Positions 18,158 to 47,232 of a stretch of DNA of 47,232 nt are shown here, piece by piece. The stretch is taken from assembly GCA_003551675.1 (NCBI GenBank), contig PUNG01000020.1, positions 1-47,232 of the forward strand, written 5' to 3'. Under the pieces are notes generated by a model. That model was not told the DNA's origin. It saw only the letters and a program-made list of their open reading frames with translations, and searched no databases. The position numbers and the translations under genes are program-made. The stretch is from Thermoplasmata archaeon (GTDB lineage Archaea; Thermoplasmatota; Thermoplasmata; Halarchaeoplasmatales; Halarchaeoplasmataceae). Every line of letters starts with the position of its first letter. The first letter of the stretch is position 1.

Positions 18158-21100
18158 ATGAGGAACATGCCGAAAAAAACTGTCACAGATGATACGTTTA
18201 AAAAAAGTGCTTCCCAGTTGTTAGAATCTATGGAAGAAGGAGTTTTAGTAACTGATGGAGATGCTAATATATTATATGCGAACCAAGGATTCCATGAGAT
18301 AACGGGTTTTACTCCAAATGAAGTGATAGGTGAAGAGGTCACAGATGTAGTCAAGGAATTGATGAAAGGTGATACTCCTGAACAAACAATCGATCTATTC
18401 AGGAGGAACGTTTTGAAAAAGGGTGAAGGAATAAATGTCACCATGGGATCCAAAAAAGGTGAAAAAAGATGCATAAACCTAGAATCTTCTTTTTTGGAAG
18501 GTGAAAAGAGTAGAGATATGATCTTTATCAGCTTTAAAGATATTACAGGTATAAAAGACTTGGAAAAAACTCTCAGAAAAAGAGAAAAAAAACTAAAAAA
18601 AACGCTGATATTTGAAAGCACGTCGGAACATATCATATATCATGACAGAGACCATAGAGTTATATGGGCTAACAAAGCCGCAGCCGATTCAGTAGGAGAA
18701 GCACCAGAAGATCTCAAAGGCAGGATGTGCTACAAAGTATGGGGTTATCAGGACAGACCCTGTGACGACTGTCCGGTTACGAAGGCTCTGAAAACCGAAG
18801 AGATAGAGCGGGGGGAAATCGAATCTCCTGATGGCCGGTACTGGTTTATCACCGCCACTCCTGTAAAAGATGACGGAGGTAAGATAGAAGGCGTGGTAGA
18901 GGTAAGTGTAGACCTTACCGAAAGGAGAGAGATAGAGAGGGAACTAGAAGAAAAACATCGTCAGATGAAGACGATCCTCAGTAATATGCCGGGTATGGCT
19001 TATCGCTGTCTTAACGACAAAGATTGGACCATGAAATTTGTAAGCGAAGGTTGTAAAGAACTGACAGGCTACGAACCTGAAAATTTGCTGAAAGAAGGAG
19101 GTACATCTTATGGCGACCTCATAATCCCCGAGGATAAAGATATGGTTTTGGATAAGATCCAGTCGTTCTTAGATAAGAGAGAACCCTTTGAAATTACTTA
19201 CAGGATCAAGACAAAAGATGATCGTACTAGATGGATGTGGGAACGAGGCGTAGGTATATATTCGGACCAAGGAGAACTAAAATTTATAGAAGGCCTGATC
19301 ACAGATATCACCGAACGGAAAGAGGCTAAAAAAAGGTTCCAAACGATCATAAACAAAGCCCCTGAAGGGATAATAGCGTATGATGAAGATGGCGATATTA
19401 TTCTAGCGAACCCAAAAGCTTCGGAATTATTAGGGTACTCTAAGGACGAGTTGAACTCCATGAACATATGTCAAATCGATCCGAGTGTAAAAAAAGATGA
19501 TCACGGGTTGTTTTGGAACGACCGACCTTTAGATGATCTAGATGACATAGAGTCTGAACATGTGAAAAAAGATGGTAGTACGTATCCCGCCAGGATAACT
19601 ATCAATAGGATGATACTAGACGGACAAAAGATGACTCTAGGTTTCTTTTTGGATATCACCGAACGAAAAGAGGCCAAGCACGCACTGAGAGAGCGAAATA
19701 AAAAGATAAAGAGATTACATGAAAAAGCCATGGAATTTGAGAAGTGTAAGAGTAAAGAAAAAGTCAGCGAATTGGTGGTAGAGGCTTCTGAGAATATCTT
19801 AGATCTGGATGTCAGCAGCATCGATTTTGTAGAAGACGATAGATTCGTAGTAAAAGCCACGGTCAGGGGTGCTCTGGAAAAGGGCACTACTTATCCTATA
19901 GAAGGGATAGCCGGAAAAACATTTAGAGATGACGAATCATTTTTGATCCAGGACTTAGATGAAGAAGAGGAAGCCGTACCGAGAAAAGAGTCGTATCGTT
20001 CGGCGATCAGTATTCCTGTAGGTGATGTCGGAGTTTTTCAGGCGCTTTCGGAAGAAAGATGTTACTTTGATGAGACGGATCTAGAACTCGCTGAGATACT
20101 GATAAACCATGCCGCCGAAGCTATAAATCGTCTTAGATACGAAGAAGAATTGAAGAGAAGTAAAAAGAGGTTTGAAACCCTGATATCCAAGGCCCAGGAA
20201 GGAATATATATCAGAGATCTCGACGGAAAGATAACTTATGTGAACGAAAAATTTGCCGATATTCATGGGTATGATAGAGATGAACTCATAGGTAAAAGGT
20301 CATCTAACCTGTTACATCCAGACTCTAGAAAGGAATTTGAAAGTTTAGAGGATTATGATAACGTATCATTAAACATGCCTGAAGAGATAAAGATAGTAAG
20401 AAAAGATGGAGAGACTAGATATGTATCGAATATCATCTCGATCATCGAGAGTGATGAAGGAAAAAAAGAAGTATTTGGTTTAGTTCGTGACATAACCGAA
20501 AGGAAGGAAAATGAAGAGAAGATAGAACATCTGAATAATCTACTGCGTTCCATACGGCAGATCAATCAACTCATCGACCAGGAAGAGGACCTGTTTGAAT
20601 TGATGAAAAGATCTCGGGAGTCGATGATAAACAATCGGGGTTATTCGGACGTGTCTATTCTTCTCATGTCTCAGGGGAAAGTCAACAAAAAAATTGGAAG
20701 TATCGGCATAGACGATATAGACTCTAAGATAGATGAGCTCAAAAGGAAAAAGAAGACTTTGATCATCGAAGAAGATGGATCTACCACCGTTCTAGTACCC
20801 ATGATGGATAAATATATGGAAGGCGTTTTGGCGGTGGATATAGTAGGAGAGGTGGATGAAGAAGAATTAGGTCTCTTAGAAGAAACAGCCGGTGATTTAA
20901 CGGTGGGAAAAAACAAGATAGAATCAGAAGAAAAATTGAAAAGATCATTGAGAGAAAAAGAAGTTCTTCTAGATGAGGTGCACCACAGAGTAAAAAACAA
21001 TCTTCAGGTCATATCAAGCATGTTAAAACTTCAGGCGAGCAGAGAGAACAAAGAGATGTCGAGAGTTTTACAAGAAGGGCAGTCTCGTATCCAGTGTATG

Positions 21101-21577
21101 GCACTGATCCACGAGATGCTTCATAGATCAGAGGATGTAGCTAGAGTAGGCCTTAATCAATACATAGACGAACTTGTAAGAACTATATATAGGACCTATG
21201 ATATTGGTCATGATGTTGAACTCGAAACTGATCTAGAATACATAGAACTCGGTATGGACCAGGCGAACCCCTGTGTACAGGCGATCCACGAGGTGGTCTC
21301 AAATGCTCTACAGCATGCATTCCCGGAAGACCACGGAGAGCGAGGAAAACTTAAGATATCGTCTTCACTCACAGACGATGGGATGGTAGAGATGATCATC
21401 AGTGATAATGGAGTCGGACTGCCTGAAGATATGGATATAAGAGATACAAAGACCATAGGTTTAAGATTGGTACATATGCTTGTCGAAGATCAGCTCGACG
21501 GGCATATAGAGCTGAATAGGGATGGTGGAACGACGTTTAAGATAAGATTTGAGAAGGAGAGTGAAAGTTATGGATGA
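18158..21577 (+). CDS. Multi-PAS/GAF sensor histidine kinase (HisKA_2-type)
   Basis: Repeated PAS signatures (ITGFTPNEVIGEEV, LLGYSKDEL, IHGYDRDELIGKR), DITERKE linkers, LLDEVHHRVKNNLQVISSMLKLQASRE (HisKA_2) and HATPase motifs (EVVSNALQHAF, ISDNGVGLPED). Confidence 0.93.
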   Translation: MRNMPKKTVTDDTFKKSASQLLESMEEGVLVTDGDANILYANQGFHEITGFTPNEVIGEEVTDVVKELMKGDTPEQTIDLFRRNVLKKGEGINVTMGSKKGEKRCINLESSFLEGEKSRDMIFISFKDITGIKDLEKTLRKREKKLKKTLIFESTSEHIIYHDRDHRVIWANKAAADSVGEAPEDLKGRMCYKVWGYQDRPCDDCPVTKALKTEEIERGEIESPDGRYWFITATPVKDDGGKIEGVVEVSVDLTERREIERELEEKHRQMKTILSNMPGMAYRCLNDKDWTMKFVSEGCKELTGYEPENLLKEGGTSYGDLIIPEDKDMVLDKIQSFLDKREPFEITYRIKTKDDRTRWMWERGVGIYSDQGELKFIEGLITDITERKEAKKRFQTIINKAPEGIIAYDEDGDIILANPKASELLGYSKDELNSMNICQIDPSVKKDDHGLFWNDRPLDDLDDIESEHVKKDGSTYPARITINRMILDGQKMTLGFFLDITERKEAKHALRERNKKIKRLHEKAMEFEKCKSKEKVSELVVEASENILDLDVSSIDFVEDDRFVVKATVRGALEKGTTYPIEGIAGKTFRDDESFLIQDLDEEEEAVPRKESYRSAISIPVGDVGVFQALSEERCYFDETDLELAEILINHAAEAINRLRYEEELKRSKKRFETLISKAQEGIYIRDLDGKITYVNEKFADIHGYDRDELIGKRSSNLLHPDSRKEFESLEDYDNVSLNMPEEIKIVRKDGETRYVSNIISIIESDEGKKEVFGLVRDITERKENEEKIEHLNNLLRSIRQINQLIDQEEDLFELMKRSRESMINNRGYSDVSILLMSQGKVNKKIGSIGIDDIDSKIDELKRKKKTLIIEEDGSTTVLVPMMDKYMEGVLAVDIVGEVDEEELGLLEETAGDLTVGKNKIESEEKLKRSLREKEVLLDEVHHRVKNNLQVISSMLKLQASRENKEMSRVLQEGQSRIQCMALIHEMLHRSEDVARVGLNQYIDELVRTIYRTYDIGHDVELETDLEYIELGMDQANPCVQAIHEVVSNALQHAFPEDHGERGKLKISSSLTDDGMVEMIISDNGVGLPEDMDIRDTKTIGLRLVHMLVEDQLDGHIELNRDGGTTFKIRFEKESESYG

Positions 21578-37290: not shown

Positions 37291-37626
37291 TCAGTCTTTT
37301 TTAAGCTTTTCTTCTATATCTTTGTTCTGGATCTCTTCTTTATGTTCCATCAGGTGATCGACGTATTCATCTCTTGTATCACAATTATCTTCCCCCGCAC
37401 AGTGAAAATAGCCGTACTTTTTACAGTATATCCCGGTTTCGGTGTTCGGACACCCTTCCTGCTCTGAAGGTTCTTCTTCTTCTTTGGTTATAGTGTCCGT
37501 TTCCATCTCTAGGATATCTTCTACCAATGGATCATCAGACAACGTGCATCTACTCTCTCCAACACACTCCAACGCCATGTTGCGGGGGTGTGAACATTTT
37601 TCTTCTCCGAATTGATACTTACACAT
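37291..37626 (-). CDS. Small Cys-rich protein, unknown
   Basis: 111 aa with spaced cysteines (CKYQFGEEKC, ECVGESRC, GCPNTETGIYCKKYGYFHCAGEDNC). Confidence 0.65.
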   Translation of the reverse strand: MCKYQFGEEKCSHPRNMALECVGESRCTLSDDPLVEDILEMETDTITKEEEEPSEQEGCPNTETGIYCKKYGYFHCAGEDNCDTRDEYVDHLMEHKEEIQNKDIEEKLKKD

Positions 37627-37669
37627 CGCGGCATCCCATCCTTTTTTAGTATATCGACGGATTTAACTT

Positions 37670-37987
37670 TTACTCTTCCTCGTCTTTGTCTTTTTTTGGC
37701 CAAGGTACTTTTTCTTTGGCTTTTTTTGTGAGTGTTTCATGAGGTGAGATCGACACTATGTCGTCTTCATTCACCTTCAAGCTATTCATATCCTTTTCTC
37801 TCAGATAGATCACGCCTTCTTCCACTAGATCGTCGGTAAAAGCCTTCAAAGTTATGCTTTTTTCATCAGAAGTTATAACGATGTCTGTTCCATCTTCTAA
37901 CTCCAAACTTTCCAATGCGTTTTGGCACACACGGGTTCTACCTGTTTTGCCTATCTTGCTTTTTTTAACCTTTACATCTACCATCAT
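37670..37987 (-). CDS. Hypothetical protein, possible double-psi/CDC48-N-like barrel
   Basis: GRTRVCQNALESLELEDGTDIVITSDEKSITLKAF...VIYLREKDMNSLKVNEDDIVSISP pattern; start overlaps the upstream gene by 4 bp. Confidence 0.6.
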   Translation of the reverse strand: MMVDVKVKKSKIGKTGRTRVCQNALESLELEDGTDIVITSDEKSITLKAFTDDLVEEGVIYLREKDMNSLKVNEDDIVSISPHETLTKKAKEKVPWPKKDKDEEE

Positions 37988-38196
37988 TTTCTTTCCTCCT
38001 CTAAATTTATCTTTACGGGGTATCTTCTTGTTTTGATATGTTCCAACCTTCCTCGTATATCGCTTATCTTTTTATCTACTTTGCTCTTTGGAACGTCCGA
38101 TCCTTTATCTTTACTTTTCTTCCTGTAAAGATAAGTGAGTATAACTGAATATATGACCAATATCACTATAGCTATCATCAATACTCTCAATATCAT
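37984..38196 (-). CDS. Single-pass membrane protein with basic cytosolic tail
   Basis: MILRVLMIAIVILVIYSVILTYLYRKKSKDK; tightly spaced in the operon. Confidence 0.6.
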   Translation of the reverse strand: MILRVLMIAIVILVIYSVILTYLYRKKSKDKGSDVPKSKVDKKISDIRGRLEHIKTRRYPVKINLEEERK

Positions 38197-38200
38197 CTTC

Positions 38201-38695
38201 CTATACCTTCCCCCATCCTTTTTTGAGCTTTATCTTTTTACTCGTGACATCTTTCACGGCCTTGGTTGGTATCTTGTCTCTCCTCTTCAACGGAGACAGA
38301 CCTGAAGGGTTTATCAGCATCTTCCAGACCTTCCATGGAGTTATCTCCGTATACATCTCAAAATCGTATATCCTTCCCAATTCCTTTCCATCGTGAGATA
38401 TGACTTTGCTTCCATCGACGCGTGAAAGGAACAATTCGTGCTCTTTCGGCGATCTTCTGCCCTTCTCCAAAGGTTTGGACAGTTCTATGACCTTTTTCTC
38501 TCGATCGTATTTAACGTCTGAAACAGAGAAGAACACGCCTTTTCTGTTCACCATCCCAGACTCTATCATGACTTCTTCGACTTGCCACTTATCTTTTTTT
38601 CTGAGCACCAATATCTCCACTAGCTTTGACTTTCCTTTTGTTTTGGGTGTGTTCACCCTTTTCCTCAAGATTTCCGAATACAGTACAGATCTCAT
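38201..38695 (-). CDS. PRC-barrel-like protein
   Basis: GSKVISHDGKELGRIYDFEMYTEITPWKVWKMLINPSG, PRC-barrel-like pattern. Confidence 0.6.
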   Translation of the reverse strand: MRSVLYSEILRKRVNTPKTKGKSKLVEILVLRKKDKWQVEEVMIESGMVNRKGVFFSVSDVKYDREKKVIELSKPLEKGRRSPKEHELFLSRVDGSKVISHDGKELGRIYDFEMYTEITPWKVWKMLINPSGLSPLKRRDKIPTKAVKDVTSKKIKLKKGWGKV

Positions 38696-38706
38696 GTAAA
38701 TATCTC

Positions 38707-39060
38707 CTATCTAGTCAATTCGAGTTTGTTGCAATATGGACATTCTTTCAGATAATTCTTGTACATATCGCAGTTGGGGCAGAAGGCGGAGCCGTATTTT
38801 ATCATCTTCGGTTCTCTCTCTTTGTTGAATAGGGCGGTCTCCATCCTGAATACCCTTTTCTTTTCTTTTCTAGCTTTTAATTGTCGGGATATATGCTTCT
38901 TCAACACCCTTCTGCTCACGTTCCCTATGTTTTTTTGGTATAGATATCTCTGGAGCAGCTTTATTTTCCTCTTGTTGTAAGGATCGTCCTGGGCGAGGAC
39001 ATAGCAATTTATGACCCTCTTCAATCGTTTGCTCGGCACAGCTTTTCTCAAGGGGTACAC
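38707..39060 (-). CDS. Basic protein with C-terminal zinc ribbon
   Basis: FCPNCDMYKNYLKECPYCNKLE at the C-terminus; Lys/Arg-rich N-terminal region. Confidence 0.65.
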   Translation of the reverse strand: MYPLRKAVPSKRLKRVINCYVLAQDDPYNKRKIKLLQRYLYQKNIGNVSRRVLKKHISRQLKARKEKKRVFRMETALFNKEREPKMIKYGSAFCPNCDMYKNYLKECPYCNKLELTR

Positions 39061-39064
39061 GCTC

Positions 39065-39400
39065 CTAGCGTTGGAGTTCTTTTTCTATACGGTCCAACCT
39101 AGCTTTGAATAGTTTCAGCTCGTCCTTCACATCTTTTTGGAATTCCTTGAGCTCTTCTGTTTCCTCTTGGCAGTGCTCCAATTTTTCCTCATAGATGTGT
39201 AGGTCGATCTCTCTGACCAGGTTAAATTCTTCTATGTATTCCTCGAAGTGCTCGTCGAGATATTTTTCTATCCTTTTATCGAACATCCTTCTTTGATAAC
39301 CACTTCCTTCTATCTCGATCTCTCCTGGGAAGAGAGATTCTTCGATCCTATCCAAAACGTTCGAACCCTTTCTTATGTTTTCATTCACAAATTCAGCCAT
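39065..39400 (-). CDS. Coiled-coil protein (member of a local paralogue set)
   Basis: KRIEKYLDEHFEEYIEEFNLVREIDLHIYEEKLEHCQEETEELKEF...LFKARLDRIEKEL. Confidence 0.65.
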   Translation of the reverse strand: MAEFVNENIRKGSNVLDRIEESLFPGEIEIEGSGYQRRMFDKRIEKYLDEHFEEYIEEFNLVREIDLHIYEEKLEHCQEETEELKEFQKDVKDELKLFKARLDRIEKELQR

Positions 39401-39402
39401 AT

Positions 39403-39813
39403 CTAATCCTCCTTACCAAACAATTCTCTTTCGGCTTTTTTAACTTCACTCATGGTCTTCAACAACTTAGCATTTTCCGAACCTCTTTCTAGTCTCTGCA
39501 TCCTTTCCTCTACCTCGCTCATGAGGGCTAAAGCCCTTCTAGACAAGATCGCCTTGTCCCTTTCGATGTGGTCCAACTTCTTTTTTTCATCGTCCTTCAA
39601 CATCATCGAAGCTTCTTTCAGCTTGTCTATGTGTCTTTCTTTCTTTGCCATCTCTAGTTTCTGGAATTTTAGCCTCATATCGCCGAGGTCTTTTTTCTCC
39701 TTTGCCTTCTCTCTGGTTATTATCACCTTAGCGATGATGGCCAAGATGATAACTACTATTATAGAGTAAAAGATGGGAAGAAAATTTTGGGAGATGGTAT
39801 CTGCAAGAGACAT
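39403..39813 (-). CDS. Membrane-anchored coiled-coil protein
   Basis: N-terminal TM (FLPIFYSIIVVIILAIIAKVIIT) then a charged coiled coil. Confidence 0.65.
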   Translation of the reverse strand: MSLADTISQNFLPIFYSIIVVIILAIIAKVIITREKAKEKKDLGDMRLKFQKLEMAKKERHIDKLKEASMMLKDDEKKKLDHIERDKAILSRRALALMSEVEERMQRLERGSENAKLLKTMSEVKKAERELFGKED

Positions 39814-39819
39814 GTTGTT

Positions 39820-40167
39820 TTACCTCCCTTTTTCCGCTAGGGTCTCTATCCTTTTCTCCACCGCGGTCAGCTCTTGGTCTATCTCTACTTTGTTAGCTTT
39901 CAACTCTTCTATGTCGGTGGATACCGTTTCTACCCTATCGTCCATATCGTCGACCCATCGGTCCACTTTGTCCTTTTTTACAAGGTCCCAATTGTCTATA
40001 ATGCTGTCAAAGTACTCTTTAAAGTACAGTTCGATGTGGCTCGGTACTCTGCCGTATTTCTTTTCCAAGGCTTTCTTCCTAGCACGATGCTTGAAGAAAA
40101 GGAATATACCTATCATGATGAGTATGACCAATAGTATTATCAGCACGAGTATGTACCACTCCATCAT
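39820..40167 (-). CDS. Membrane-anchored coiled-coil protein (member of a local paralogue set)
   Basis: TM (YILVLIILLVILIMIGIFLFF) followed by IELYFKEYFDSIIDNWDLVKKDKVDRWVDDMDDRVETVSTDIEELKA...ELTAVEKRIETLAE. Confidence 0.65.
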   Translation of the reverse strand: MMEWYILVLIILLVILIMIGIFLFFKHRARKKALEKKYGRVPSHIELYFKEYFDSIIDNWDLVKKDKVDRWVDDMDDRVETVSTDIEELKANKVEIDQELTAVEKRIETLAEKGR

Positions 40168-40490
40168 GATCCCTCCTTGATCTCTTCAGCATCAAAATCG
40201 ATCCCCAGTTTTTCTTCCATCTCTTCGATGATGGCTCTGTCTCTATGTACTCTTTCTTCCGTGGTCTCTTTCCAATCGTTGAGATCCGATATCTCGGCCA
40301 TGAAGCCTTCTATCTTTTTGTCTATCCCGTTAAGGTCTGATTTTGTCGCTAGTTTGTATTCGTCCACATATCCAGCTAAATTTTTTGTAAGATGCTCATC
40401 GACCTTATCCGAAGGGGTGATCGCCTTTTTCTTGAAGAATCCCTTGGCTCTTTCCAACAATCCTATCTTGTTTCCTTCTTCGTCTCCCAT
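40164..40490 (-). CDS. Coiled-coil protein (member of a local paralogue set)
   Basis: Start placed at MGDEEGNKIG (40490), preceded by AGGTG; DKVDEHLTKNLAGYVDEYKLATKSDLNGIDKKIEGFMAEISDLNDWKE. Confidence 0.65.
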   Translation of the reverse strand: MGDEEGNKIGLLERAKGFFKKKAITPSDKVDEHLTKNLAGYVDEYKLATKSDLNGIDKKIEGFMAEISDLNDWKETTEERVHRDRAIIEEMEEKLGIDFDAEEIKEGS

Positions 40491-40590
40491 GTTAACACCT
40501 ATTAGACTATACTCGATAATGCGTATTTGTCTAATAAAGTTTTCCTCTATACTGTAGTTTCCCATGTTAGGATGTAAATTACCGGACAAC

Positions 40591-40636
40591 TTTTAAATAA
40601 GTGAGAAAAGCTATCATTATCAATAAAAAGAGGAGG
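40591..40636 (+). promoter_or_regulatory. TATA box (TTTTAAATA) and ribosome-binding site (AGGAGG) for the giant surface protein
   Basis: TTTTAAATA at 40591-40599; AGGAGG at 40631-40636, 11 nt before the ATG at 40648. Confidence 0.65.
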
Positions 40637-40647
40637 TTTTTCAAAAC

Positions 40648-43600
40648 ATGCCCCTGAATAGACCCTTAAGAAGATTTAAAAAATTTAAAAGATTTAAAGG
40701 AGACGAAGGCGGTGTATCCGAGGTGGTCGGTACTATTTTGACTTTGGCCATAACTGTGGTGCTGTTCACTAGTGTTTTTGCCGTCGTGACTCAGATGGAC
40801 GAACCGGAAGAAAGAGACCATGCCGACTTCGAAGCGAATTTTGAGCGCATCGAGGACGCTGCTTATATAAATATAACTCACAGAGGCGGTGCATCTCTAG
40901 AGATAGGCAACTTGGAATTTATATTGTCTATAGAAGGCGAAACCTATCGACTGGATGACGATATGTTAAATTCAGATGATACCTGGTCTTCTGGACAGGT
41001 CGTTGTGATCTTCATAGATGAAGACGATGATGTCCCTGTCGATGAACCCGATATCGAACTCATGATCCGTAAGAGAGATACTCATCAGATCATCTATACC
41101 ACTACGTTGGTGGATAGAGAGGACGAACCCATCACCATCAGGTGGGTCGATATCAAATACAAGTACGAATGGAGAGAGTACACGGAGCCGGGAGACGAGG
41201 TAGAGATCAGAGCGGAAGTCGTCGTCGGTGGAGAATTTGATGTAGATGATGTTACGGTGGAAGCGAGCGTGCCCCGGGCCGATGTTTTTGATGAAGATGA
41301 GCCAGTGACGTTGGAGAAGGGTAGAGGAAATGTTTACAGCAGCAAAGTCAACATAAGTTCTGATGCGGATATCGACAGGTACAGTCTGAAGGTAACCGCG
41401 GAGGTCGATGGTCATTCTGAAGAGGAATATTTGACTCTAAACGTAGGTGAAGAGACCGTGGACCTTTATAGGCCTGATCTTGTTGTTGGTGACATACGTT
41501 TCAGTCCGGGATCTCCTTCTCACGGAGACGAGGTCGTGGTTACCGCAGATATATACAACAACGGAAGGGTGAACTACACGGCGGAGTGGGAAGTAAAGGA
41601 TGATGGAGATCTCAAGAGAAGGTCGAATACCACGTTCCCACACGGTCCCGCTCCTACCAGGATACAAGCTAGTTTTGTCGTGGAAGGACACGGACCTCAT
41701 GATATCACGGTTTCGGTCTCTACCGACCTTTATGAAGATGAAGATCTAGATGAAGAGGGACAACCCGAAGAAGATGCGACCCCTATAGAGGACGTAGAAC
41801 CCGAAGACAACCGTAGGACCGTAAAAGTCCATGTCGATCCCCACGTGTTGGTGGTCAGGGATTCTCTCGAAGAAGGATTGAGAGAAGGACGTATCATGGA
41901 GAACGCCCTTATAAGCTTGAACTTGGATTTTGAAAGGATGGATGTCAATTCTGGAAATGATGTCCCAGACTTGGATGAAATGTATGAACACAGTTTGATC
42001 ATATGGATGAGCGGTAACAGGACGGAGGAAATACACGTCGAAGATGCTAGCGATGATCTCGATGAATTCATAGAAAACGGAGGTGCATTCTGGCTGATAG
42101 GATCCAACTTAGACGGGATGGGAGATATAGGTGATCTCGAAGACAAACTCGGATCTATAGGTTTTGACGAAGTTCCAGATGATGGATTTTCCGAGGAAAC
42201 CGTCTTCGAGCCAGGCGGCGAGGACGGCACGTACGGCGATCTAAATTACACTGTAAGGCCAGGAGATGAATATCTTATCATAGACGATAAGAATGATGTT
42301 GAAGATAACAACACATTGATAGAGGAAGGTACCGATGACATATACGGCGTAGGTTACGATGTCGGTGAAAGGAACAGGACTGCGGTGAATTCTTTCTTGT
42401 TCGAAAATATTATGGATGCGGGTCAGAGGAGCACCATGGTATCCAACGTAGTCAGCTGGATAACCAACATGGAGACCAGGAGCGGTGTGGACGTTGCTGT
42501 TTCGTCCCAACTCATCGAACCGGCCAATCCCATGTTCATGGACGAGGTCGTGATCACCGCAACACTGAGGAACAACGGTCCTGAAGATCTTTACGTGACG
42601 GTAAGGTGTGAGAGGAACGGTGGTGAAGAGATATTGAGGCCCGAAGAGGGCGATAACATATACCTACCTAAAGACGGAGGAACCGAGACAGTCACTTTCA
42701 TCTGGATAGCCGAGGAACTGGGAGTTCAGGAGTTCATAGCCATAGCGGATTATTACAACGAGATCGACATGGTCACCCGTAGGAACAACGATATCCGATA
42801 CAAAGATTTAGAAGTTACTGACGACAGGATAGAAGTGAACGTGCATTATTCTACGCTGTTAGTGGACGCCGACTATTCCATAGATGGAGATCACCACAAC
42901 GCCACAAGGGACGTAGAAGAATCTTTTATACGATTGGGTCACAAAGAAGGTATAGACTACGATTACGTATTGGTGGAAGAAGGTGAAGACGGACCTGGTT
43001 TCGACCAAGGGGAGCCAAAGTTGGAGGATTATAACGCTGTCTTTTGGGTGACCGGTGAAAGGAAAAGATGGGAAGATGATAATGTACTGACTGAAGCCGA
43101 TATGGAAAATTTAGAGAGTTATGTGAACCAAGAGAGGGGAGCCAACTTGATACTGATGGGAGAGTATATACTCGAGGATCTAGATCATAATGATGAAGAC
43201 GAATTTTTAGAGGACGTGTTGGGGATCGACCCTGGCTCTATCGGAGAGTTGGGATACGAGCCCGAGGCGTTGATAGGTCAAGAAGATAATAGGATTTCGC
43301 GTGGCTTGAAGTACGAGCTTTATGGTTCTAACGATCTATATACGTTCTATACGGAGGAAGGTACCGACACACTGTTCCAGGATGAGAACGGCAACGATCT
43401 CGCATCCATGCGTGACGATGGTAGATCCAAGGTGATTTACATGGGTATCAACCTCAGCCACTTGAGCGGACCGTTGGTGGACGAAGAGAAGTACGAGGAC
43501 TGGCCTGCCGGGGAAGTGGACCTGAGTCACGAGAGTGCGAGAGAGGAATTCATCTATACGACGATGTGGCAGTTAGGTAAGAGAGATGATAGAGCCGAGC

Positions 43601-46600
43601 TGAGAGTTTTAGATCATGATATCGAGTTTTCAACGGACGAACCGCACACGGGTCGTTCTTACGAGATAAGAGCTGAGATACAGAACATCGGTTATAGAGG
43701 TACTTCCGCTTTGATAAGAGTGAAAGAGGGCGAAGATTATGTCGGTGCGGAAAGTGCTTTTATAGAGGGATCTCGAAGAGATTCGGTCGACGGCAGCACT
43801 TACTTTGAAGTGGATCCCGGAACCGCAACCATAGAGGTCACGTGGCGTCCTTCTTACGCAGGTAATAGAGACATACGAGTAAGGGTCGATCCCGTGCGAA
43901 GAACCAGAGAGATCTCGGAAGATAGAGAAAGTGAAGAGAACAAGCTCATGGAGTTCCACAACCAGGCCACCGTTACGCAGCCCGTTTATTACTTCCACGA
44001 TGATATGGAGACTGGTGATAACTGGGACCACGATACCACCGTGGCGAACATCGATGGTAGCGGAGCATTGGATCTAGTTGAGAATCCTCGCGAAACCCAA
44101 GTACATGGAGATTGGGATGGAGATTATTCAGGCATGACTGCTAGACATGGCGCCGAAGATCAAGGCTATTGGGAGACCGACGATGAAGACGTTTCCGATT
44201 TCACCGATAAAGCGAGTTATTCTTCTCCAAGGTCTTACTGGATGCCGGAGACCTATGCCGGCGGGACTGGCGAGAGGAAGCCCATCGATATGGTGCTAGT
44301 GGTTGATACATCGGGCAGTATGGTCGGTGGCTCGGATGGTTATACAGACCCTCCTACTATCGATTGGTGGGAACATGCTTATGATGCCACAAGAGCTGTG
44401 GCTCATGAGCTTAGAGAGGGAGATAGATTGGCAATTTTTGATTTTGAGAGTGGTTCACCTTATGGCCCAAGAATGATCATTGGATTCAATGAGTTTGATG
44501 ATAATGGATATTGTTTAAGTGAGGATAATCAGCAGGAGTTCATCGAGAAAGTGATATCCCCTTATATTGGTGATTCTAAGGAGTACGAATCAATGACACC
44601 TCTTTATGATACAGTTTCACGGGCTATACAACACCTTGACGAAGAGGCCCGGCCCGAAAGTGAAGCTACAAGGGCAGGAATACTCATGACGGATGGTGGT
44701 GGTAATTATGATGTAGGATCCGAACTTTATGAGCCAGGAACAGGGCATTATGAGGTTGATACACCTGGTCCAGCGACCTACTTTGTTAGCGGAGAAGAAA
44801 GTGGATTGTTAGGAATACCTTATGATTTTATGACGGTCACCCTTGGTCATCTAACCAGGGATTCAAGATTACATGCGATATCGGCATCAGCTACAGGTGA
44901 AAACAATTTTGGAGTTTTTGAAGAGGAACCAAAAAAATTGGGTCCTCTTTTTGCGATGTACACCGCAGCGATGGTAGAGGAATCCGAAGGAGGTATCAGG
45001 TCGGAACGCAGGACAGGTTTAAACAACGAATACGAGTCGATAGTTACGGATTTCAGTGTGTTTTCGGACGCGTTCTTAGGGGGTATGTCTGGTGTAGATC
45101 TTGACGAGTGGGAGACCGTTTATGGGGATCAATGGAACGCAGATGGATTTGATCTTCATGAGATTAATGGAGATTATAGGTCTGCAAGAGCGAATGACAA
45201 TGGAGATTCACTCACCTATGAGGTTGATCCATCTCTCACTTTAGACAATCTGCAGGGTGAGATAAACTCCATCGAAGATGTGATCGTTAATTTTGAATTT
45301 TCAACACCTACACCCGGCAATGGATGTCTTTTATCTGGTGATTCTCATAGACCGTTACAGGATCATGCAGAACTAGATGTTTACGTTGATGGTGACCTTG
45401 TTGAAGATGGCTTTAGTCAAACCAGTGATTATGATATAGACGACCCGGACACTTGGGATGAAGTCTATATCACTGATCATATTACTAACCTAGAAGCACC
45501 GTTCGAGATAGAATTTAGAAAAAGTGGTGCCGATGATGAGCCATTAGACATCGTATCTGTTAATGTGTTGTATAGGCTCGATTATGAGATATATACCGGT
45601 CCAAGCCCTGATCATGTTGAGGATTATGAAGATGTATCAAATGAGAACGATTTAAACACATCTAATGATTTATCTGATTACGAAGACAGTGGCATAGAGT
45701 ATCTGACCCCACCACCATATTACAGATACACTACAACACCTGCGATAGAGGTCCTCGATACTACAAACGAAAAATTGTCATTCCGAACCAAGTATTGGAT
45801 GACCCAGGGAACCAATGGTGGTATCATGTATCTCTGGGGAAGAAATGAAACGCAAGGACAAGATTGGGTATGGCAGTCTTACGATAGGCGGTATATAAGG
45901 CCGGATCAATCTTATACTGGCAATCTTGATTTTAGTGTAGTGAATGCTGATGCGGATACAGGTGGTCCTGACCTAGATAATAATGGTGGTACTGGTTTGA
46001 GAGATGCAGAAGGCGATCTCCCTTACTGGTGTTTCAACGGGAAAAGTGTCGGAGGCACTTTTGAATGGACTTATATCAGTGTGGATCTGTCTAGATACGA
46101 AGAATTTATGGAAAAACATGACGAGGTGCGGGTAGTATTTGTGACTGCCCAGATGGGTGGTATATCAGAGGAAAGGTGGCGACCCGAGATGGGTTGGTAT
46201 CTAGATAATGTGAGAGTGACTGTTACCAGAGATGCAGGGGATGAAGTTCCTGACGACGATCTTGGGTACTGGATGCGTGTCAATAGGAGCATGGTGCTAG
46301 ACCGATTTGATGAGAATAAAATCGATGAACAGTATTATCATGACAGCAGTGGAGACCCTGAAGGGAAGTTCTGGATGTATGCTGCTAATGATGATGGTGA
46401 ACCCGTACTACCCAAAGGCGTAGATTCGAGCCTTTATACTTCCATGATCACTCTGTCCAATGCGGAGAATCCCGAATTGAGTGCTTATATGCGGTTCAAC
46501 TTTGATGATGGAGGTGGAAGACCTCCAAATGGTTTGAGAGTTGAGATATCTGAGGACGATGGCAGATCATGGGAAACCCTTACATATGGTATAAGAGTAG

Positions 46601-47082
46601 GATGGAATCACACTGGACATAGTTGTGATTATTCTGGAGAGACCGATGATGGAGAAGATGGATATGGATGGGTCGATACGTCCACGCTTGTACGGTTAAA
46701 TACTGACTTATCAGATTGGAGAGGTAAAAATGTGAGGCTCCGGTTTAGGGTTTTCACGAACGAAACAGAGAGCAGTTTCTACCATAAGGAAACTCTACCT
46801 AAACCCGTCTTCATAGACAATGTGATCGTAAGAGAAAGAGATATGGACCTACATACACCTTTATTTGAATCACCAGATGTAGGGCCTATGGGTCTTTGTA
46901 ATACTGCGTCAGAGATCGAACATTTGCAGAGAGGAGATCAAATCGAATATTATGAGATATATTCTAAAGAAGCTTCTCATCTTTCATTCCTGCCTGGAAT
47001 AGAAAGAACCTCAACTTATTTCAATGACATGGAAAAAGAACCGCTGAGAGACAGTATTGAAAGGAGGGAGCTACAGTGGTGA
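40648..47082 (+). CDS. 2144-aa surface protein: type IV pilin-type N-terminus, CARDB-like and GATase-like/ThuA-like repeats, VWA domain, lectin-like segments
   Basis: N-terminus RFKGDEGGVSEVVGTILTLAITVVLFTSVFAVV; CARDB-like (DLVVGDIRFSPGSPSHGDEVVVTADIYNNG; VDVAVSSQLIEPANPMFMDEVVITATLRNNG); VWA MIDAS DMVLVVDTSGSM. Confidence 0.88.
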   Translation: MPLNRPLRRFKKFKRFKGDEGGVSEVVGTILTLAITVVLFTSVFAVVTQMDEPEERDHADFEANFERIEDAAYINITHRGGASLEIGNLEFILSIEGETYRLDDDMLNSDDTWSSGQVVVIFIDEDDDVPVDEPDIELMIRKRDTHQIIYTTTLVDREDEPITIRWVDIKYKYEWREYTEPGDEVEIRAEVVVGGEFDVDDVTVEASVPRADVFDEDEPVTLEKGRGNVYSSKVNISSDADIDRYSLKVTAEVDGHSEEEYLTLNVGEETVDLYRPDLVVGDIRFSPGSPSHGDEVVVTADIYNNGRVNYTAEWEVKDDGDLKRRSNTTFPHGPAPTRIQASFVVEGHGPHDITVSVSTDLYEDEDLDEEGQPEEDATPIEDVEPEDNRRTVKVHVDPHVLVVRDSLEEGLREGRIMENALISLNLDFERMDVNSGNDVPDLDEMYEHSLIIWMSGNRTEEIHVEDASDDLDEFIENGGAFWLIGSNLDGMGDIGDLEDKLGSIGFDEVPDDGFSEETVFEPGGEDGTYGDLNYTVRPGDEYLIIDDKNDVEDNNTLIEEGTDDIYGVGYDVGERNRTAVNSFLFENIMDAGQRSTMVSNVVSWITNMETRSGVDVAVSSQLIEPANPMFMDEVVITATLRNNGPEDLYVTVRCERNGGEEILRPEEGDNIYLPKDGGTETVTFIWIAEELGVQEFIAIADYYNEIDMVTRRNNDIRYKDLEVTDDRIEVNVHYSTLLVDADYSIDGDHHNATRDVEESFIRLGHKEGIDYDYVLVEEGEDGPGFDQGEPKLEDYNAVFWVTGERKRWEDDNVLTEADMENLESYVNQERGANLILMGEYILEDLDHNDEDEFLEDVLGIDPGSIGELGYEPEALIGQEDNRISRGLKYELYGSNDLYTFYTEEGTDTLFQDENGNDLASMRDDGRSKVIYMGINLSHLSGPLVDEEKYEDWPAGEVDLSHESAREEFIYTTMWQLGKRDDRAELRVLDHDIEFSTDEPHTGRSYEIRAEIQNIGYRGTSALIRVKEGEDYVGAESAFIEGSRRDSVDGSTYFEVDPGTATIEVTWRPSYAGNRDIRVRVDPVRRTREISEDRESEENKLMEFHNQATVTQPVYYFHDDMETGDNWDHDTTVANIDGSGALDLVENPRETQVHGDWDGDYSGMTARHGAEDQGYWETDDEDVSDFTDKASYSSPRSYWMPETYAGGTGERKPIDMVLVVDTSGSMVGGSDGYTDPPTIDWWEHAYDATRAVAHELREGDRLAIFDFESGSPYGPRMIIGFNEFDDNGYCLSEDNQQEFIEKVISPYIGDSKEYESMTPLYDTVSRAIQHLDEEARPESEATRAGILMTDGGGNYDVGSELYEPGTGHYEVDTPGPATYFVSGEESGLLGIPYDFMTVTLGHLTRDSRLHAISASATGENNFGVFEEEPKKLGPLFAMYTAAMVEESEGGIRSERRTGLNNEYESIVTDFSVFSDAFLGGMSGVDLDEWETVYGDQWNADGFDLHEINGDYRSARANDNGDSLTYEVDPSLTLDNLQGEINSIEDVIVNFEFSTPTPGNGCLLSGDSHRPLQDHAELDVYVDGDLVEDGFSQTSDYDIDDPDTWDEVYITDHITNLEAPFEIEFRKSGADDEPLDIVSVNVLYRLDYEIYTGPSPDHVEDYEDVSNENDLNTSNDLSDYEDSGIEYLTPPPYYRYTTTPAIEVLDTTNEKLSFRTKYWMTQGTNGGIMYLWGRNETQGQDWVWQSYDRRYIRPDQSYTGNLDFSVVNADADTGGPDLDNNGGTGLRDAEGDLPYWCFNGKSVGGTFEWTYISVDLSRYEEFMEKHDEVRVVFVTAQMGGISEERWRPEMGWYLDNVRVTVTRDAGDEVPDDDLGYWMRVNRSMVLDRFDENKIDEQYYHDSSGDPEGKFWMYAANDDGEPVLPKGVDSSLYTSMITLSNAENPELSAYMRFNFDDGGGRPPNGLRVEISEDDGRSWETLTYGIRVGWNHTGHSCDYSGETDDGEDGYGWVDTSTLVRLNTDLSDWRGKNVRLRFRVFTNETESSFYHKETLPKPVFIDNVIVRERDMDLHTPLFESPDVGPMGLCNTASEIEHLQRGDQIEYYEIYSKEASHLSFLPGIERTSTYFNDMEKEPLRDSIERRELQW

Positions 47083-47232
47083 ATGAAAGAGGGAAAAACA
47101 AATTGATGCAAAAACGCTGTAGTGAAAGATCGCAACCATTGGCAAGGGACGAAGAAGGTGTATCCGACGTAGTGGGTAACATCCTCACGCTGGTCATAAC
47201 AGTGGTCATATTCTCAAGTATCTTCGCCGGCG
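47079..47232 (+). CDS. Second protein with archaeal pilin-type N-terminus, truncated by the window edge
   Basis: GTG at 47079 after AAGGAGGGAG (47061-47070), overlapping the upstream TGA; MNERGKNKLMQKRCSERSQPLARDEEGVSDVVGNILTLVITVVIFSSIFAG... Confidence 0.8.
   Translation, partial: MNERGKNKLMQKRCSERSQPLARDEEGVSDVVGNILTLVITVVIFSSIFAG

Follow-up and report, generated by a model that had tools for sequence, protein, structure and literature searches.

A candidate giant modular type IV pilin of a Thermoplasmata archaeon and its relatives

Two tandem giant genes at the end of the window

The DNA analysed here is a 47,232-nt contig of a Thermoplasmata archaeon of the family Halarchaeoplasmataceae (GenBank assembly GCA_003551675.1, contig PUNG01000020.1), referred to below, at its full length, as the window. 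It ends in two tandem genes for very large proteins, the first of which (gene 1) starts with an archaeal pilin module (Table 1). We propose, with a probability of roughly 0.6, that the product of gene 1 is a giant modular type IV pilin, that is, a minor pilin that a prepilin peptidase would process and that would be displayed, most likely on a pilus tip, as an arm for adhesion. A first-pass annotation of the window, made from its letters alone, had suggested that pilin machinery anchors or assembles a very large adhesin or fibre here. That suggestion is supported by the pilin module, the peptidase and the adjacency of giant genes to PilB-TadC genes in several families, all described below.

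Table 1. Positions in the window of gene 1, its parts and the start of gene 2
Feature	Position	Strand	Basis
Giant modular pilin gene 1 (putative), 2144 aa	40648..47082	+	ATG-start open reading frame; Pilin_N; BLAST alignments with giants from other families over almost the whole length
Shine-Dalgarno-like AGAGGAGG ahead of gene 1	40629..40636	+	read from sequence
Charged leader (residues 1-23); cut predicted either behind G23 or at the G22/G23 junction	40648..40716	+	-1 G/A rule (PMC4371748)
Pilin alpha1-N hydrophobic helix, residues 24-50, Glu at +3	40717..40797	+	Pilin_N, conservation
Pilin beta head with INITHxGG motif, residues 51-165	40798..41142	+	profile A3 against 8fj5
Ig-like and first CARDB-like units, residues 166-395, limits approximate	41143..41832	+	NPCBM_assoc 16.5 bits (below cut-off); conserved N scaffold
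GATase-like unit 1, residues 396-616	41833..42495	+	repeat family A2; weak PDB match 2gk3, E=0.014
CARDB domain, residues 620-714	42505..42789	+	41 bits, cut-off 22.7
GATase-like unit 2, residues 737-985	42856..43602	+	A2 alignment with unit 1, 18% identity
Third CARDB-like unit (inferred), residues ~990-1135	43615..44052	+	sequence, place in conserved N scaffold
Variable insert, residues 1202-1695, VWA first; metal site D1220, S1222, S1224, T1317, D1349	44251..45732	+	
Conserved C scaffold, MAM-like, residues 1696-2063	45733..46836	+	profile coverage
Shine-Dalgarno-like AAGGAGGG within the end of gene 1, ahead of gene 2	47061..47068	+	read from sequence
Second giant pilin start (putative), broken by contig end	47079..47232	+	GTG start; rest on contig C33; Laminin_G_3 at C-terminus

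The start codon of gene 2 overlaps the TGA of gene 1, the overlap being four bases, and the protein begins ARDEEGVSDVVGNILTLVITVVIF. The window is an entire contig (C95 in our numbering), and its positions 47112-47232 are identical to the first 121 bases of another contig of the same genome (C33:1-121). Since these 121 bases lie inside gene 2 and mark an assembly-graph break, the end of the window is artificial. Joining the two contigs gives a gene 2 product of 2272 amino acids that is 39% identical to that of gene 1 across ~2,190 columns, with the lectin-like Laminin_G_3 domain scoring 48.6 bits. The 51 residues encoded within the window score 23.3 bits against Pilin_N, in line with the earlier remark that the next gene starts like the first. 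A further tandem pair of giants, of 1820 and at least 935 amino acids, lies on contig C9 of the same genome. When the full gene 1 protein was searched against a contig collection, the only match was a near-identical contig, PWHN01000063.1.

The N-terminal pilin module

We use the term giants for gene 1 and for the large proteins of its own and related genomes that share its N-terminal module. Direct reading covered 27 full-length giants, and the presence of the motif at the start was confirmed for about 50 large proteins; frame lengths in the relatives are given from stop to stop. Residues 22-97 of gene 1 match the Pfam family Pilin_N (PF07790) with 47.9 bits, the curated cut-off being 25.2, and the family is matched by all of the 26 full-length giants scanned, from the window's own genome and its relatives. 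Residues 22-48 form the most conserved of 1,472 windows in the alignment of the giants, with a pairwise identity of 0.61 there against 0.27 overall. We also aligned residues 1-170 from 25 giants into a profile (A3, 171 positions) and searched it against solved structures. It matched an archaeal pilin determined by cryo-electron microscopy (8fj5; E=1.2e-11, profile positions 9-124), Natrinema PilA2 (8gi2; 2.6e-6, positions 10-126) and a further archaeal pilin structure (9myg; 1.1e-5). The matches to 8fj5 and 8gi2 both span the N-terminal helix and the beta head, indicating that the giant has a whole pilin module, more than a leader alone.

Any hydrophobic N-terminal helix can mimic a pilin start. 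A surface protein that has an ordinary signal anchor and matches pilins by chance would be in keeping with the scores of 14.3 and 16.6 bits with the archaellin/pilin N-terminal model TIGR02537, which are under its cut-off of 20. TIGR02537 is a short model of 33 positions covering the same segment, so these scores weaken the longer Pfam match without overturning it. The Pfam score, the residue conservation, the homology of the head, the presence of a prepilin peptidase and the match in 26 of 26 giants all contradict a generic anchor, and we regard a chance resemblance as highly improbable. The prepilin-type N-terminus read by the first-pass annotation is upheld by the pilin family search it had called for, and the ordinary signal anchor that it had named as counting against its idea is not what the sequence shows.

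With the cut placed after G/A, as PMC4371748 gives it for PilA of Haloferax, the third residue of the predicted mature protein (+3) divides the Pilin_N proteins into two classes. It is Glu or Asp in all 50 large proteins, whereas it is Pro in 31 of 32 small ones (Fisher 2e-23, a value that is overstated because the sequences are related). Large proteins with the N-terminal motif that we sampled beyond the class again have Glu or Asp at +3; the small ones have Pro or Ala, with one Glu. The residue at -1 is G or A in 50 of 50 large proteins.

Proposed stalk units, scaffold and insert

Behind the pilin module, gene 1 had been described as an array of CARDB-like domains, two GATase-like units and a VWA domain. 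The CARDB domain scores above its cut-off. The two GATase-like units are genuine repeats of one domain, so that this part of the description stands; the name is poorly backed, since the profile of the domain finds only a putative GATase-like structure (2gk3) at E=0.014. A search with gene 1 alone detects the VWA domain weakly (VWA_2, 21 bits, cut-off 27), whereas a profile built from the family does so clearly; the metal ion-dependent adhesion site of the domain (MIDAS; DxSxS, T, D) is complete. The VWA profile matches adhesins that include the type IV pilin PilB of Streptococcus sanguinis (7b7p) and pneumococcal RrgA (2ww8), the matches to RrgA and SpaC being weak.

Comparison of the giants places this VWA domain in a modular setting. 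In 21 of the 27 giants, a common N-terminal scaffold of ~1,100-1,250 residues and a common C-terminal scaffold of ~310-380 residues enclose an insert that ranges from 42 to ~1,130 residues; the other six have in common only the pilin module and the adjacent Ig-like part. A VWA domain is found at E<0.01 in 17 of the 18 longer inserts, including that of gene 1, and some inserts add Big_5, fn3-like or MAM-like domains. InhA-like_MAM is detected in 13 of 26 giants. CARDB, VWA, MAM-like and lectin-like domains, none of them specific to pili, are thus fused to the pilin module, the arrangement by which modular pilins are recognised. The metal site of the VWA domain is degenerate in some paralogues, L019 among them, and intact in neighbours (loci L019:3739-4692 and L077:6102-7073), which suggests a division of labour within tandem sets.

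Modular type IV pilins are known from S. sanguinis, in which PilB carries a vWA module and PilC a lectin module, each protein being ~50 kDa (PMC8179133, PMC9934059). As in that pair, the giants combine a pilin module with bulky adhesion modules, and a metal-site VWA domain in one subunit with a concanavalin-A-like domain in the other is paralleled, by analogy only, by the intact VWA domain of gene 1 and the C-terminal Laminin_G_3 of gene 2. Unlike the S. sanguinis proteins, the giants have the archaeal PF07790 module, reach 2144-2272 residues with many stalk units, and carry their VWA domain within the scaffold insert rather than straight after the pilin. The published survey of modular pilins, based on the bacterial domain IPR012902, names 860 residues as its largest case (PMC8179133, PMC9934059). 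Predicted archaeal class III signal-peptide proteins range from <150 to well over 1000 residues (Szabo et al., 2007, as cited in the 2015 review PMC4371748); those form an uncharacterised list, whereas the giants are an orthologous family defined by its scaffold and insert, its +3 signature and its linkage to the machinery. Modular pilins and archaeal prepilin predictions above 1000 residues are therefore already known, and the giants are a very large new variant. We found no description of the giant family, its scaffold-insert design, its PilB-TadC link or the +3 split in the openly accessible literature, subscription papers lying outside the search.

Pilin_N frames of about 4,600 residues looked like still larger N-terminal giants and were ruled out, the pilin being at their C-terminal end. 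These frames represent the opposite of the arrangement in the window. In a different class of this phylum, very long surface proteins continue in frame, at their C-terminal end, into a small VSP-type pilin, the order being a C-terminal transmembrane helix, an acidic linker and then an A|VSPVIATILM pilin with ~165 residues to the stop (L152:13400-16900, in G134:C2; L153:1-4300, in G143:C7; G152:C105; G078:C30; G095:C20). Within one family of 57 genomes, ~50 have an uninterrupted junction, mostly in frames of ~4,500-4,800 residues. The fusion may be a polyprotein from which the pilin is released by prepilin peptidase, or translation of the pilin may begin at an internal start, the absence of a stop being conserved.

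Machinery, spread and proposed assembly

A direct scan of the window's genome with PF01478 gave no peptidase match. A query with a peptidase of the same genus found a 63% identical protein at C158:18580-19491, which scores 31.5 bits against PF01478 (cut-off 26.5) and 49.7 bits against Arc_PepC_II (cut-off 29.9) and retains two candidate catalytic aspartates (in RDLKTRR and GGADAK); the lack of a prepilin peptidase, which the first-pass annotation had named as grounds for giving up its idea, is thus not the case here. The assembly genes that it had proposed to look for are likewise present. Five PilB-type ATPase matches (PF00437) lie on contigs C46, C25 and C36, and three TadC matches (PF00482) on C46 and C36, the C25 ATPase being followed by a further long TadC-type gene, so that the genome encodes three PilB/TadC-type systems. 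The C46 cluster has two ATPases, two TadC proteins and one DUF7289 pilin-like protein. The PilB-TadC pairs on C25 (L018:2146-5866) and C36 (L016:3310-7162) have a one-piece TadC of ~674 residues and ATPases ~26% identical to those of C46; the C36 pair is followed by a 1241-residue membrane protein and a pilin-like start (EDGVMDYPFRLLIISIVLV).

The first-pass annotation had noted that such an N-terminus normally sits on small pilins; in this group it is common on large proteins. Pilin_N is present in 52 of the 61 genomes sampled, 60 of which are relatives, and among the 150 matches listed, 82 are on frames of 100-350 residues (mostly 150-250) and 64 on frames of 500-2,670 residues, each size class being found in 42 genomes. 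At least 22 of the large frames are in same-strand tandem, with up to four paralogues in one locus, and no small Pilin_N gene was seen within 15 kb of a large one among these matches. Large genes are linked to assembly genes in several families. In family f15 (2/2, both single-contig genomes), the giant adjoins a cluster of a 270-residue pilin-like gene, PilB, TadC and TadC; in f8 (5/5 genomes), a Pilin_N protein of 570-670 residues lies 3-6 kb from the PilB-TadC cluster; and in f16 and f11, large Pilin_N genes and the cluster are within one locus. The ATPases of these linked clusters are 55-63% identical to those of C46, to which the clusters are orthologous, compared with ~23-29% between the C25 and C36 ATPases and any of them. 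In genomes G036 and G025, where giants and cluster share a locus, other large secreted proteins lie between them. In G025 (contig C4), one of these is a 1036-residue secreted protein (L084:13414-16524) with an M14 zinc carboxypeptidase domain, a C11 clostripain domain and a C-terminal transmembrane helix, and genes of similar size come after the giants in G036 and G053. In G085, a genome from a different class, two frames with Pilin_N, of 2115 and 1628 residues, lie 2-4 kb from PilB, judged by search coordinates alone.

Along with the TIGR02537 scores, several observations weigh against assembly of gene 1 into a pilus. The giants are far from PilB in f3, at 83-86 kb, and in f13, at 359 kb; that the two are on different contigs in the window's genome is neutral. 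The residue at -2, a position at which archaeal peptidases reportedly require a charge, is charged in 19 of 50 large proteins as against 27 of 32 small ones; if the cut is allowed one residue earlier, the large proteins with a charge number 40 of 50. A fold of residues 1-284 predicted from the single sequence has a helix at 23-48 and a confidence (pLDDT) of only 48, and we did not use it. The lack of PilB linkage in f3 and f13, and the single N-terminal transmembrane helix of nearly all giants, would suit a membrane-anchored surface adhesin whose pilin-like start, cut or uncut, stays in the membrane and serves targeting only. Such a protein would have little reason to show its strongest conservation in the pilin helix, to keep a pilin head or, in four families, to stay linked to PilB-TadC, and we therefore consider this explanation unlikely, if still a serious one.

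We propose instead that the gene 1 product would start out as a prepilin, which Sec would insert and which the FlaK/PibD-type peptidase of this genome would cleave immediately ahead of the hydrophobic helix. The N-terminal helix of the pilin module would then dock into a type IV pilus made by a PilB-TadC machine, here probably that of C46. Because the pilin module of 165 residues has to carry another ~1,950, a tip position as a minor pilin is the most likely. The Ig-like, CARDB and GATase-like units would form a stalk; binding to surfaces or other cells would fall to the VWA domain of the insert, with its intact metal site, and to the lectin-like end of the paralogue. Large non-pilin domains behind a prepilin start are handled by PibD and a PilB/PilC pair in the Sulfolobus bindosome; its subunits are sugar-binding and ~4x pilin size, whereas the giants keep a pilin head and have CARDB, VWA and MAM modules. 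In the Kil/Tad apparatus of Myxococcus, interchangeable sets of large modular minor pilins (KilLMN, TadG-like) are proposed to cap one pilus (PMC12075869), and the tandem giants are parallel by analogy; the Myxococcus tips are bacterial and the likeness drawn here is one of arrangement. PilY1 and the tip adhesins of sortase pili (RrgA, SpaC) place a VWA adhesin at a pilus tip, and differ in not being pilins themselves, the giants carrying their own pilin module.

The tandem arrays of up to four paralogues and the distinct acidic +3 class could instead mean that a separate filament or surface layer is built mainly from giants, with a large arm on every subunit, and the Sulfolobus bindosome does assemble subunits ~4x pilin size (PMC4371748). 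We think this improbable, since small VSP-type pilins, the obvious shaft subunits, are found in most of the same genomes, and ~1,950 extra residues per subunit would presumably be hard to pack. A more speculative idea, to which we give little credence, is that the pilus machine reads the +3 residue, Pro marking small shaft pilins and Glu/Asp the giants of 600-2,700 residues, and so places the tandem-encoded sets as interchangeable arms of 200-300 kDa at filament tips or as the subunits of a filament of their own.

Elsewhere in the window, a divergent cluster at 37291-40589, beside the giants, encodes small proteins (coiled-coil, one-transmembrane and one cysteine-rich) with an ATP_bind_1 GTPase and an ArsR-type helix-turn-helix gene, and its gene order is kept in three same-family relatives (L073, L076, L079). 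At 18158-21577 lies a sensor kinase of 1139 residues with five PAS domains, one GAF domain and HisKA_2/HATPase.

The giants, with a full pilin module and two to three times the published maximum of ~860 residues, occur in most of the sampled genomes of an archaeal class. The split between acidic residues and proline at +3 provides a testable hypothesis, resting on one residue, of how the machine could distinguish tip from shaft subunits. Modular pilins are known mainly from bacteria, and the giants predict how these little-studied archaea may attach to surfaces or partners.

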